A stretch of DNA of 64,000 nt from Candidatus Scalindua sp. (GTDB lineage Bacteria > Planctomycetota > Brocadiia > Brocadiales > Scalinduaceae). Location of the stretch: assembly GCA_021776915.1 (NCBI GenBank), contig JAIQZU010000074.1, forward strand, positions 1 through 64,000, written 5' to 3'. Each line of letters starts with the position of its first letter. Within the stretch, counting starts at the first letter, position 1. Of this stretch, positions 15,563-20,145 are shown piece by piece. The notes under the pieces were generated by a model, which saw only the letters and a program-made list of their open reading frames with translations, made no database searches and was not told the DNA's origin. The translations under genes were made by a program, and so were the position numbers.

Positions 15563-15649
15563 GCAGTCAGAGGGATTTGGCACTGACAAAGAATATTGCC
15601 TAATCAGGAACAGACACAATTAATTTGTACTTCACTCCTTAGATCATGG

Positions 15650-15722
15650 CTCAGGTTTTCTGTTCGATATCAAACAGAGGTCCCTGTATCCATTTACCAT
15701 AACATTTCGGGCACTTGCCGGG
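15650..15722 (-). pseudogene. Remnant of a Zn-ribbon regulator gene (3' end only)
   Basis: About 73 bases match the 3' end of the gene at 17311-17592 with roughly 65 identical positions. Read on the minus strand it still encodes KCPKCYGKWIQGPLFDIE and ends at the same stop codon. The rest of the gene is missing; the REP transposase begins nine bases beyond the break. It is the relic of a diverged paralogue interrupted or replaced by the transposase element. Confidence 0.75.
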
Positions 15723-15730
15723 GAATTATA

Positions 15731-16342
15731 ATGGTTTTATATAAAAACAGATACCGCGTTGAATCAAGCCGCCTGAAAGATTGGGATTATTCGTCAAGCG
15801 GATATTATTACATAACAATTTGCACCAAAGGCCGGATATGTCATTTTGGAGATATTGTAAATGGTGAAATGATTTTATCGGCAATCGGCGAAGCCGTCCA
15901 TCAATATTGGCAGGAAATCCCAAATCATTTCCCATTTGTCAGATTGGATGAATTCATCATAATGCCCAATCATGTACATGGCATAATTATTATTGATAAA
16001 TCGGATGCGGGTGATGAAAACGCGAAAACGCCGGTACACAACGTAGAGACGCAAGGTGTAGAGACGCAAGATTTTGCGTCTCTACGTTATAAAAATGATA
16101 TGGATTTGCAAAAATCAAATGAACCCCAAAATAAATTCGGACCGCAATCAAAAAATATTGCATCCATAATTCGCGGGTTTAAAATCGGGGTTACAAAATT
16201 TGCCAAAAACCAGAATATGTCTTTCGGATGGCAGCCCAGATTTTATGATCATATCGTCCGTAACGAAAATGATCTCAACAGGATACGTCAATACGTAATC
16301 AATAACCCGGAAGACTGGGATAAAGATGATTTTCATCCATAA
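15731..16342 (+). CDS. REP-associated tyrosine transposase (Y1 HUH family)
   Basis: A 203-residue single-strand transposase of the IS200/RAYT type. The HUH motif is visible as MPNHVHGIIII, and the typical C-terminal FYDHIVRNENDLNRIRQY followed by NNPEDW is present. The start at 15731 is chosen because the frame upstream is the translated gene remnant at 15650. Codons around 16041-16087 encode a palindromic GTAGAGACGCAA repeat, of the kind these enzymes mobilise. No target repeats flank the gene clearly. Confidence 0.9.
   Translation: MVLYKNRYRVESSRLKDWDYSSSGYYYITICTKGRICHFGDIVNGEMILSAIGEAVHQYWQEIPNHFPFVRLDEFIIMPNHVHGIIIIDKSDAGDENAKTPVHNVETQGVETQDFASLRYKNDMDLQKSNEPQNKFGPQSKNIASIIRGFKIGVTKFAKNQNMSFGWQPRFYDHIVRNENDLNRIRQYVINNPEDWDKDDFHP
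16041..16087. repeat. GTAGAGACGCAA repeats forming a hairpin inside the transposase gene
   Basis: Two direct copies (16043 and 16058) are followed by an inverted copy (to 16085), so either direct copy can pair with the third. This resembles bacterial REP/BIME palindromes. It is in frame with the host gene and encodes a variable linker. Confidence 0.75.
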
Positions 16343-16374: not shown

Positions 16375-17052
16375 TCATTCGAAAGGATTTGTAAAATTCA
16401 TGTTCTTTCTTGTAATTACCTGCATAGATAAAATTGAAAAAATGCAGTATCCAAGGAAGAAATAGAAACCAAATTCAAATCTAGCTCCCAATTCCATTAA
16501 CCCTCCCATAGTGGAGGCATTGGCCGCCATGAATGCAACAATAATGGCTACTACGAATACGTCAGCCATTGACCACTTACTTATCGCACTGCTTATTAAG
16601 AATGCTTTCCTGCTATTCTTCGAGTCATAAAAATAAGCACCCAACAACATCAGCAGGAGCTTAGTAACCGGAATTATTATACTGAAAAGCATCACCAGAA
16701 AGCCGACAAAACCGTTACCGGTGCGGAAAAGCTCTTTGACTGTCCCCGCTATACTTCTTGTCTCATTGTAGGCCTCAAATTCTCCTTCGATGTCATTAAG
16801 CCCTAGCATTCCGGTAACCATGCCTATCATTCGTTTGGCTTTACCTTGTTCGTCTTTTTCTGATTTCCCTTTACCATTCTGCATTGACTTCTCAACCATG
16901 GAATCGACAATAATGTCTATCCCCTTATCAGTCATCCTGGCTTTATCTATCGTCCCGGTCAGAGTAAGCATGGGCTGCGTGACTCCGGGAATCAGCAGTG
17001 CAAGGGAAATTATGGTAATAATTAAAACCGTAGAAAGCTTTGGAGTTTCCAT
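16375..17052 (-). CDS. PqiA-like inner-membrane protein
   Basis: A 225-residue protein with four predicted membrane segments (about residues 9-27, 120-145, 160-185 and 195-215). The KWSMADVFVVAIIVAFM segment is the hallmark of the paraquat-inducible protein A domain, part of MCE-type lipid transport systems in Proteobacteria. A lysine-rich loop near residues 60-75 faces out of the membrane. ATG at 17052 is chosen because AAAGGG lies at good spacing; the longer frame starts with TTG too close to it. No pqiB/MCE gene is adjacent. Confidence 0.8.
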   Translation of the reverse strand: METPKLSTVLIITIISLALLIPGVTQPMLTLTGTIDKARMTDKGIDIIVDSMVEKSMQNGKGKSEKDEQGKAKRMIGMVTGMLGLNDIEGEFEAYNETRSIAGTVKELFRTGNGFVGFLVMLFSIIIPVTKLLLMLLGAYFYDSKNSRKAFLISSAISKWSMADVFVVAIIVAFMAANASTMGGLMELGARFEFGFYFFLGYCIFSILSMQVITRKNMNFTNPFE

Positions 17053-17172
17053 ACTAAACAATCCCTTTCATTTAACTTTAAAATATTTGACACATTTGAA
17101 ATGCTGCCGTCTCCCAGTGGGCAATTGCTGAGCATATACAACAGACACCATTAAATTGAGCGATTTTGTAGC

Positions 17173-17310: not shown

Positions 17311-17592
17311 TCAGGTTTTCCGTTCGATATCGAACAGAGGTCCCTGTATCCACGTACCCTGGCATTTCGGACACTTGCCGGGCTTGTGCAATTTATCTTT
17401 ATTAAATTGAAAATCACACTTCCGGCAGTTTGCGGGTGTAACAACCAGACGATCATCGGCATGCTTAAGGCTCTTGATAAGATGCCTGATATCATCCTCC
17501 GCATCCTTCTGCGGCACCTCGAGATGCCTTGCAATTTCCACCAGATCCATAGAATCGTTCCGGAGTAGTTCAATCAGATCCTTACGTAACAT
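17311..17592 (-). CDS. Predicted regulator: HTH fused to Zn ribbon
   Basis: A 93-residue protein of the COG3357 type. Residues 1-50 form a winged-helix-like segment (LVEIARHLEVPQKDAEDDI), and the C-terminal half carries CRKC and CPKC, a zinc ribbon ending in WIQGPLFDIE. ATG at 17592 is preferred over a TTG two codons earlier. The target is unknown. A degenerate copy of its 3' end lies at 15650, so the genome once held two. Confidence 0.8.
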   Translation of the reverse strand: MLRKDLIELLRNDSMDLVEIARHLEVPQKDAEDDIRHLIKSLKHADDRLVVTPANCRKCDFQFNKDKLHKPGKCPKCQGTWIQGPLFDIERKT

Positions 17593-17632
17593 GTGCAACT
17601 TTCCAAATCAAATTTCAATATTGACTCCTGTA

Positions 17633-17854
17633 CTACCTCATGTAAGTGCTTCGGTTACAATCTGTCACGGTACGATTAACTTGTTTTTCACACGCTTCCC
17701 GGTAGAAATTATCAATCTCAGCAGCCAGCTTTACAGACGGTCTTTCAAGTGTTTTGAACAAATCAGCCATGGACTCCGTAACATTTCTAATGGCTTTGGC
17801 TAGTTTTGCTATTTCAGCAATTTTTTTCTTTTCAGGTTGTTCTTCTTTTTTCAT
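17633..17854 (-). CDS. Small hypothetical protein
   Basis: A 73-residue charged, probably helical protein (lysine/glutamate-rich start, then AEIAKLAKAIRNV and MADLFKTLE). No domain is recognised and no signal peptide is present. It lies between the MotB-like gene and the Zn-ribbon regulator on the same strand, so it may belong to either operon. Confidence 0.5.
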   Translation of the reverse strand: MKKEEQPEKKKIAEIAKLAKAIRNVTESMADLFKTLERPSVKLAAEIDNFYREACEKQVNRTVTDCNRSTYMR

Positions 17855-17922: not shown

Positions 17923-19581
17923 TTATTTGTCTTGAATATGCTTTGACATCTTTTGCACGGAAATGTCATTTATTGAAAATTCACGCCAACCTTTCAGGTT
18001 ATCAATACGCAGAATTTTATTCTTTTTATATGCGAATCCAATAAAGTTACCCTCCAGATCAACAATCTGATCGCCCTTTACAATATATTCTGCATAGTTG
18101 CCGGTACCGCGAAATCCCTCATTATCAAAATATAACTCATCTCCTGTGATCATTAATAGATGGTCTCTTTTGAAAATAAAAAAATCACGGCTAATACCAC
18201 GAATCCTGTCCATAACTCCCAATTGCTTTTGACTGCGTATGGAAAACAATACAGGCATGTACGATGAAAATTTATTTGTTTTACCAACAGGTAAACAGTA
18301 CTTGACGCCGGCATTAATCACCAACGCTGCGATTTCCGCATCTCCTGGCTTAATGTAAACCTTTGTAACAGGTTTGCCATTAGCAATTATGCTATATGAA
18401 GCATAATGATCGGGTGTTAACAACGAGCCTAATCCAATCCGGTCTAATGGTACAAAGATTACATGGTCATCTCCCATCTTGACCGGAAGCCCCTGCATAG
18501 TGAACACTTTCCTGCTAACGCTTTCTAAGCGGTTACCATAGTCAATTGTTATAGTAAACTGTGTTAATTTATCTAAAATATTTTCACTATAAGCTTTGTC
18601 AGAGGTTTGTGTAATACTCTTTATTGTTGATATTACCTTTGCGGTTTCACTTTTAGCAACGCTTGCAACCTTTAAAGCACTTGCTTCTGCCTTCCTGGCT
18701 TTTTCTTCATTTCTCCGTGCGATCTCCTTTAAGCTCTCGGCTTTTTCTGCTAATTTGAGTGCGATAGTTTCACTTTCCTTAGCTTTTTCAGCTTTTAACC
18801 TCTCATCCTTCGCAATTCTTCTGGCAATCTCTTCGTTTTTCTCAGCCTCTTCTGCTTTCAGCCGGGCCTCTTCCGCAATTCTACGAGCTATCTCTTCATT
18901 TTTCCTGGCCTCCTCTGCTTTTAATTGAGCCTCCCTTGCAATTCTTCTCAACTCCTCCTCATTGTCTTCAGCTTTTTCCGCCTCTAATTTAGCCTCTTCT
19001 ACAATTTTGATCACAAACTGTTCCTTCTTCTTCGCTTCTAATCGTAACTCCTCAGCAGTTATTAAGGCTTTCTGCTCATTCTTCTTAGCCTTTTCTGCTT
19101 CTAACTGCATTTCCTCAGCAGCTTTTAACGCTCTCAGTTCGCTCTCCCTGGCCTTTTCAGATTCCACTTGTGTCTCTTTCGCAATTTTCAAAGCGTTTTG
19201 CTCTTTCTCCTGAGACTTCTGTATTAGCTTATCTAACTCCTCCTTTCTGTTGATAGTCTTTGACAATGCAATTTCAGTCTGCGACGCCTTTTCCTTTTCA
19301 ACATTTACCAATTGCATTGCTTTTTCGGTCTCAGTTTCAGCAGTCAAGATTAATTGCAAGGCTTGCTCCTTTTCCTTATCCAATACAGAAACTCTGTTTT
19401 TTAATTCCAGGACATGTCCTTTAGATATTTCCGAATCCTGGTCTGCCTGAATCTTAGCCTCTTTTAATTTATTATAATCATCAACGGTTAAAAAACTGTT
19501 ATTAAATGGGTTAACCTGGCTAAGTGTGGTCAGGTATAGAATCAAGAAGATGTCACACATTCCGACAAGAAACATTCTCAT
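17923..19581 (-). CDS. MotB/ExbD-like single-span protein with long coiled coil
   Basis: A 552-residue protein. Residues 3-22 form one membrane span with an aspartate at position 10 (GMCDIFLILYLTTLSQ), as in the proton-channel helix of MotB and ExbD. Residues about 45-330 are continuous coiled coil with repeated EEARLKAEEAEKNEE-like units of 22-30 residues. The last 210 residues are a beta-rich domain I do not recognise; it is not an OmpA-like peptidoglycan-binding domain. AGGAGGT before the ATG overlaps the end of the MotA-like gene, so translation is coupled. It probably works with that protein as an ion-driven complex; this is inferred. Confidence 0.65.
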   Translation of the reverse strand: MRMFLVGMCDIFLILYLTTLSQVNPFNNSFLTVDDYNKLKEAKIQADQDSEISKGHVLELKNRVSVLDKEKEQALQLILTAETETEKAMQLVNVEKEKASQTEIALSKTINRKEELDKLIQKSQEKEQNALKIAKETQVESEKARESELRALKAAEEMQLEAEKAKKNEQKALITAEELRLEAKKKEQFVIKIVEEAKLEAEKAEDNEEELRRIAREAQLKAEEARKNEEIARRIAEEARLKAEEAEKNEEIARRIAKDERLKAEKAKESETIALKLAEKAESLKEIARRNEEKARKAEASALKVASVAKSETAKVISTIKSITQTSDKAYSENILDKLTQFTITIDYGNRLESVSRKVFTMQGLPVKMGDDHVIFVPLDRIGLGSLLTPDHYASYSIIANGKPVTKVYIKPGDAEIAALVINAGVKYCLPVGKTNKFSSYMPVLFSIRSQKQLGVMDRIRGISRDFFIFKRDHLLMITGDELYFDNEGFRGTGNYAEYIVKGDQIVDLEGNFIGFAYKKNKILRIDNLKGWREFSINDISVQKMSKHIQDK

Positions 19582-19587
19582 ATTATC

Positions 19588-20145
19588 TCACACCTCCTCT
19601 AAAACAACAGGAGCTGACGCCTCAGGTAAAGGAACAATAATCATATATTTTGCAAATAAATGCAATAGAATGCCGGTTATAGTGGAAATATATGCCAGTG
19701 GAGCAGATAGCGTACCGGTCATAAACTGAGTTAAACATACGCCCAGCAAAGACCCAAGCAATCCAAAGTACATAGGCATTTCACATAAGAATGTGATCTC
19801 TCTCATTTGTTTCCGGTTTAGGCGTTTCCTCTTTGCTTTTTGTGAAGCAACAAGTACTGGAAACGTTTGTAACGCCCCAAATGCAGCAAGTAGTATCAAA
19901 ATCCATTTAGAAGTAACGAATGAAGAATTGCTTGTACTTTGTGGATTTGTATCTATGAGAAATTGAGACTTAGTGTCTGTCTGAGGTTTAAAATCTGAAG
20001 TTGGCCGCGGTGAGATTACAAGATAACCGATAGACCCCAGCAGCAATACAAAAATTATTAAAAGAGGTACAAAAATATGGGCCGTCCCTGAACTGGCGTC
20101 AGTTGAGGTTATATTTTTTTTAACATTATCTGTATAATTAGCCAC
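19588..20145 (-). CDS. MotA/TolQ/ExbB-like membrane protein
   Basis: A 185-residue protein with four predicted membrane spans (about 24-46, 82-100, 124-143, 149-172) and a basic cytoplasmic loop between spans 2 and 3. The last two spans, with MYFGLLGSLLGVC and APLAYISTITGILLHL, resemble the channel-lining helices of MotA/ExbB (a GLLGTxxG turn, then a small-residue and threonine-rich helix). It starts with GTG after AAAGGAG. The partner gene starts six bases after its stop. It lacks the large cytoplasmic domain of MotA. Confidence 0.6.
   Translation of the reverse strand: MANYTDNVKKNITSTDASSGTAHIFVPLLIIFVLLLGSIGYLVISPRPTSDFKPQTDTKSQFLIDTNPQSTSNSSFVTSKWILILLAAFGALQTFPVLVASQKAKRKRLNRKQMREITFLCEMPMYFGLLGSLLGVCLTQFMTGTLSAPLAYISTITGILLHLFAKYMIIVPLPEASAPVVLEEV

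Follow-up and report, generated by a model that had tools for sequence, protein, structure and literature searches.

The gene pair considered here may be set beside four known systems, two of which are outlined first. In a recent survey of force transducers, TPH-vWA proteins are reported to pair with a lone TolQ-like gene, and their N-terminal span, which carries an Asp, is suggested to rotate within the ring and itself transmit the force (Williams-Jones et al. 2025, PMC12204202). The fusion of a MotB-type helix with a new end domain, encoded next to a solitary TolQ-like gene, is already published, and the same survey holds that more trans-envelope systems driven by 5:2 motors are still undiscovered (PMC12204202). 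The second system is GldL-GldM of type IX secretion and gliding, described as a two-protein motor without clear sequence homology to other 5:2 motors, whose axle is long, rigid, and dimeric and presumably crosses the periplasm (PMC9389320). Here we describe a pair of genes, A and B, in a 64,000-nucleotide stretch of DNA from Candidatus Scalindua sp. (the window) and read it, with a probability of roughly 0.58, as an ion-driven inner-membrane motor of the MotA-MotB/ExbB-ExbD/TolQ-TolR/GldL-GldM kind in which the in-pore helix is fused to a shaft.

Gene A (19588-20145, minus strand; 185 amino acids, GTG start) encodes a four-span protein, a divergent MotA/TolQ/ExbB-like candidate for the wheel subunit, and gene B (17923-19581, minus strand; 552 amino acids) encodes a candidate axle or shaft protein; both open reading frames (ORFs) lie where a sequence-only reading of the window had placed them. 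Both proteins are conserved in tandem in all six genomes that carry the pair, which argues against chance ORFs. The two genes had been called translationally coupled, and this is plausible, since a Shine-Dalgarno-like site and a short distance between stop and start are kept in 6/6 genomes: the A stop lies six bases from the B ATG in the window (5 to 6 bases across the six), and the last codons of A, E-E-V-stop (19588-19599, minus strand), hold the site, which reads GAGGAGGTG in the window and GAAGAGGTG or GAAGAGGTA in the relatives. The C-terminal EEV of A is invariant in the six-sequence alignment, possibly because its codons hold the ribosome site of B.

A whole-genome search found A in 6 of the 75 genomes of the class and, counting true matches only, in 6 of the 62 genomes of the order, while a sample of the phylum (392 genomes) added no A outside the order. 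Of 59 genomes searched, the same six contained B and also its C-terminal domain, and the co-occurrence in relatives that the earlier reading had proposed to look for is complete, A and B being adjacent in every genome with either gene (6/6). The holders belong to the genus of the window (the window and three other Scalindua loci) and to Candidatus Anammoxibacter (two loci). Within the window's genus (13 genomes), the pair is confined to the four largest genomes (3.8 to 4.8 Mb), and the nine without it measure 2.1 to 3.0 Mb; genome size alone is no explanation, since three genomes of 4.1 to 5.2 Mb in the same family lack the pair. Contigs were also scanned with short exact patterns or tblastn, a search depth at which distant relatives may exist: genome contigs yielded nothing with A alone and four loci, all anammox, with the A alignment; none was found among viral contigs searched with the alignments of A and of B, among plasmids with A, the first 110 residues of B, and the C-terminal domain of B, or among phages with the C-terminal domain of B only. 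Two candidate relatives were rejected as chance matches. One (G000:C80, E = 0.33) falls in a short frame on the strand opposite a coiled-coil ORF of 933 residues; the other (G048:C61, E = 3.1e-4) is by eye a sensor-kinase-like ORF, which leaves six and not seven of the 62 genomes.

The pair is kept together in surroundings that vary among the window, the other Scalindua, and Anammoxibacter, and no third conserved gene is common to all pair genomes. In the two Anammoxibacter loci a phosphopantetheinyl transferase and a ParA-type ATPase adjoin the pair. Flanking ORFs of 393 and 571 amino acids recur at the three other Scalindua loci; at the single locus scanned they encode an MFS protein and an arginyl-tRNA synthetase. 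The neighbors in the window differ from these. Downstream of the pair, the window holds a charged 73-amino-acid ORF just after B and on the same strand (17633-17854, minus strand), for which the five other neighborhoods showed no homologue, a PF0610-type zinc ribbon (17311-17598), and a single-domain PqiA-like membrane protein (16375-17061, minus strand; PF04403, E = 1.2e-18). An ORF with an MPNHVHG motif (15596-16342, plus strand) is also present; we take the motif to indicate a probable IS200/REP-type transposase.

To judge from a low-confidence AF2 model (mean pLDDT of only 61), A has helices at residues 20 to 44, 74 to 104, 111 to 143, and 149 to 170. The loop between spans 2 and 3 (residues 102 to 116) carries 5 to 8 Lys or Arg and 1 to 2 acidic residues in 6/6 members, and spans 3 and 4 are joined by a short hairpin. 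Given the strongly basic loop and the short hairpin, the positive-inside rule would place both termini of A in the cytoplasm, as in MotA. The cytoplasmic domain between TM2 and TM3 is absent, its place being taken by the basic loop of about 15 residues, and the C-terminal tail measures 14 residues. Constraint is distributed unevenly over the protein: invariant positions in the six sequences number 2/25 in span 1 and 8/25 in span 2, rising to 23/28 in span 3 (residues 116 to 143; 19717-19800, minus strand), which contains GLLGSLLG with Ser132, and 20/25 in span 4 (residues 147 to 171; 19633-19707, minus strand), which contains Y-I-S/T-T-I-T/S-G with Thr155, so that spans 3 and 4 together have 43/53 invariant residues. 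In the conserved spans of A and B, 47 to 58% of the codon pairs for identical residues differ synonymously. Since synonymous codons vary freely there, the alignments argue that the constraint acts on the protein and does not reflect recent exchange or a constraint on the DNA.

Membership of A in the MotA/ExbB family depends on the method of comparison. PF01618 (MotA_ExbB) has no match to A at E <= 5 in 6/6 members, no MotA/ExbB model of Pfam, NCBIfam, or PADLOC matches it, and a HMMER model built from 40 local MotA/TolQ/ExbB cores leaves it within noise (<=5.4 bits). The 40 cores came from 27 of 31 MotA/ExbB loci (L045, L049, L054, and L060, at contig ends, were omitted) and 13 further loci, all of which yielded a core. 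Aligned profile to profile with this pooled set, the A alignment scores 30.25 in hhalign (P = 1e-4), joining A residues 106 to 178 to core columns 2 to 83 in register, which places GLLGS opposite the GxxGT motif and T-I-T-G opposite T-x-x-G. Scores fall to 18.26 for the reversed A alignment and 8.96 for the first half of A. None of 360 local shuffles, made by permuting columns in blocks of 12 that preserve local hydropathy, reached 30.25; the maximum was 20.98 in a set of 60 and 29.78 in a set of 300 (mean 14.6, standard deviation 3.4), where one shuffle thus came close. Taken singly, each of the six A members (24.2 to 26.1) outranks 52/52 unrelated forward membrane ORFs (54 less two true MotA/ExbB proteins), while one reversed ORF beat single A members, over 33 columns. 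The match depends on the pooled core, single sub-families giving 11.9 to 24.8: the highest score, 24.8, comes from a mini-ExbB of 148 residues belonging to the same order, ExbB/TolQ reaches 19.7 and MotA 17.6, and a ZorA-like local pair, labeled by eye, is the worst (11.87).

When A is mapped via a local ExbB onto the solved TolQ, Ser132 falls on TolQ Thr145 and Thr155 on TolQ Thr178; both residues are invariant in 6/6 members, Ser standing for Thr at the first ring position. We take TolQ T145 and T178 to be equivalent to ExbB T148 and T181. In one study, ExbB T148 and T181 are called essential together with ExbD Asp25 (PMC12905483). Among the Foldseek and VIA-align matches listed for the A model (AF2 pLDDT 61) there was no MotA/ExbB protein, which, with so poor a model, does not count against the fold. 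Because the match of TM3-TM4 is in register and beats the shuffles, the decoys, and, as described below, NuoJ, we classify A with moderate confidence as a divergent MotA/ExbB-type subunit. The sequence-only reading had likened A to MotA/ExbB and let this stand or fall with a profile match to that fold; the likeness survives in the profile-profile comparison of TM3-TM4 (30.25, unmatched by any shuffle) and fails against Pfam MotA_ExbB, which misses all six members.

B has one hydrophobic span (residues 3 to 21; mean Kyte-Doolittle hydropathy of 1.93 to 2.07) in 6/6 members, with Asp10 inside it in each, and beyond residue 30 the mean hydropathy never exceeds 1.28; the single N-terminal span holding Asp10 was thus correctly recognized. 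The N-terminal segment (residues 1 to 23; 19513-19581, minus strand; Asp10 codon at 19552-19554) is invariant at 22/23 positions over six sequences, compared with 31/277 in the coil and 73/235 in the C-terminal domain. That Asp10 is invariant adds nothing to the evidence, because the whole span is invariant. We compared the span with those of 15 of 19 MotB/ExbD proteins (three without an Asp in register and one near-duplicate were dropped); the score of 9.28 was equaled or exceeded by 117/200 shuffles of this very short span, and the best alignment, which sets Asp10 on the MotB/ExbD Asp, is accordingly not beyond chance. Of the proposal that Asp10 is the equivalent of the MotB/ExbD channel aspartate, the location in a membrane span holds; a match of that span to MotB/ExbD was not significant in either of two forms of the comparison, although the span is too short for such a score to be decisive. 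On the partner side, PF02472 and PF13677 are presumably the families that accompany PF01618 (MotB/ExbD/TolR).

The span is followed by a coil of 293 residues in the window (residues 34 to 326; 18604-19482, minus strand), slightly longer than the 285 or so first proposed, and of 233 to 331 residues in the family, which corresponds to 35 to 49 nm if fully helical and straight. With A, V, I, L, M, and F taken as core residues, its periodicity has a power of 5.37 at 3.5 residues, and none of the 14 other periods tested exceeds 0.81. Given this sharp period and a 21-residue repeat, the helical region of B is a real heptad coiled coil and not merely charged sequence. Open frames run opposite the coil (18596-18928 and 18962-19213, plus strand; up to 357 amino acids in L021); they seem to arise from the heptad repeat and not to be genes, and could mislead an annotator.

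The remaining 235 residues of B (318 to 552; 17926-18630, minus strand) form a C-terminal domain that, as anticipated, resists assignment and stands in place of OmpA. Neither B nor any of the six C-terminal domains has a Pfam match to an OmpA-like or ExbD periplasmic domain, no peptidoglycan-binding domain was recognized in B, and vWA is likewise without a Pfam match in the six C-terminal domains at E <= 5; the domain as a whole has no weighty Pfam match and no sequence match in the PDB. In a model with a pLDDT of 53, half of which is unreliable, the best structural matches are HtrA/DegP proteins (Foldseek E = 0.066 for DegQ; VIA-align Z = 6.7 for DegP, with an rmsd of 4.2 Å over 143 aligned residues, a level that the tool grades as middling). 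A trypsin profile (31 of 36 loci passing the motif filter) scores 19.84 in hhalign, below the maximum of 21.45 among 40 shuffles. The SGG motif of the catalytic serine is absent from the last 235 residues in 6/6 members, and the stretch aligned with trypsin SGGPLx reads KGDQIV. A noncatalytic trypsin/HtrA-like fold may therefore be entertained for this domain as a lead only.

In the motor that we favor, several copies of A (five, by analogy) would form a ring with spans 3 and 4 as its lining, and two B spans would sit within it, with Asp10 facing the ring of Ser132 and Thr155; the pattern of constraint is as expected if the B span packs in a pore of A spans 3 and 4. Ions moving down their gradient would protonate and release Asp10 in turn, setting ring and axle in rotation against one another. 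As the in-pore helix of B continues directly into the coil, the 35- to 49-nm coil, if exported to the periplasm, could carry this movement across the envelope to the C-terminal domain, which would grip a partner, perhaps through a trypsin/HtrA-like fold used for binding instead of cutting. The useful output would be expected on the B side, since A has almost nothing that is cytoplasmic, as proposed for GldLM (PMC9389320) and TPH-vWA proteins (PMC12204202). A bolder reading, which we hold tentatively and rate somewhat below even odds, is that the pair represents an unnamed lineage of 5:2 motors confined to large-genome anammox bacteria, with a near-minimal wheel devoid of a cytoplasmic domain, an axle continuous with a 35- to 49-nm shaft, and a noncatalytic protease-like grip, B acting as a shaft for torque, neither anchoring nor pulling like a rope.

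The strict conservation of surfaces presumed to be in contact could also arise without a motor, if A were a scaffold or assembly partner and B an envelope tether or sensor on a long stalk, in a static complex with neither ion flow nor turning. The absence of a Pfam match for A and of a sequence match between the B helix and MotB/ExbD would fit such a complex; against it, spans 3 and 4 of A match the MotA/ExbB core in register, both ring positions included, and burying an Asp in a single span would be costly unless it were used; we consider this explanation less likely than the motor. In TolA, a single N-terminal span is followed by a long helix and then a C-terminal domain, and B, with its N-terminal span, long A/K/E-rich helix, and C-terminal domain, could on this layout be a TolA/TonB-like transducer outside the motor ring, pulling and not rotating, with A as the TolQ-like protein and a TolR/ExbD supplied from elsewhere. 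No member has a His among B residues 1 to 25 (6/6), and hence none has the SHLS motif of TolA/TonB; B has an intramembrane Asp instead, and none of the 10 neighboring proteins scanned is ExbD/TolR-like, so that we find a transducer of this kind quite improbable.

The identity of A itself has one competitor, a complex I subunit or a relative of it, as the NCBIfam NuoJ model, the sole lead from that collection, matches the A of the window (E = 9.4e-4, 18.7 bits). This match concerns one of the six members and lies far under the 174-bit cutoff, and hhalign of A against 21 NuoJ sequences (from 22 loci above the cutoff, of which 21 gave a usable ORF) gives 12.25, less than the average of 15.96 for shuffles, on which grounds we rejected NuoJ as having next to no chance of being correct.

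Set beside the described systems, the favored motor combines known features with new ones. Like TPH-vWA proteins, it has a TolQ-like subunit without a separate TolR/ExbD and a partner whose span carries the Asp. Unlike in those systems, A is recognized only by profile-profile comparison, the shaft of B is a heptad coil of 233 to 331 residues, and its end domain is without a Pfam match to vWA. It shares with GldL-GldM the format of a two-protein motor with a long axle and no clear sequence homology to other 5:2 motors; GldL, however, has a long cytoplasmic tail, whereas A has a tail of 14 residues and a loop of 15, and B is a coiled coil. No gld/por-type genes were recognized among the neighbors of the pair that were scanned. 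A resembles MotA, ExbB, and TolQ in having a first pore span with GLLG[ST]xxG, a second one with T-x-x-G, and a short hairpin between the two, and the gene next to it, as with MotB, ExbD, and TolR, encodes a single span with an Asp. The distance from GLLG to the S/T-T pair, counted by eye, is 26 residues in A versus 31 to 36 in local MotA/ExbB proteins, and in contrast to these systems, A is without a cytoplasmic torque domain and B without a recognized peptidoglycan-binding domain. Zorya ZorA-ZorB, a defense motor, belongs to the same superfamily and has unusual extensions; the PADLOC ZorA and ZorB models match neither A nor B at E <= 1.

The pair had been put forward as a new ion-driven machine. 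Since its theme of a fused helix is already present in PMC12204202, we describe it more narrowly as a variant of that theme; the A-B architecture itself was not found in the portions searched of the PMC literature on anammox bacteria and 5:2-type motors, including a survey of MotAB diversity (PMC12505986). Should the motor reading be correct, wheel, axle, and shaft might suffice as a two-gene system, which could then be made and tested alone, and the pair would illustrate how much reduction the MotA/ExbB core tolerates. It would also add an unrecognized consumer of the ion gradient in anammox bacteria, whose envelope and organelle are energized unusually.

Other MotA/ExbB-type loci collected during this work have features of their own. 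Four anammox loci (L079-L082, in genomes G010, G010, G014, and G015) encode a mini-ExbB of 148 to 168 residues beside a short ExbD-like gene, and this mini-ExbB is the sub-family nearest to A by profile. Eight loci (L034, L042, L044, L047, L048, L051, L054, and L055) have two unequal MotB-like ORFs beside MotA, one of which has its Asp about seven residues before the usual register. A MotA/ExbB protein of a GLMGTxIPM type occurs at seven loci (L085-L091), and a short protein of 95 to 124 amino acids whose span begins LFD or IFD is found nearby at five of them (L085, L087, L089, L090, and L091) and likewise at L068, on the contig of L086, so that the GLMGTxIPM-type protein and the short protein are possibly another two-gene pair.
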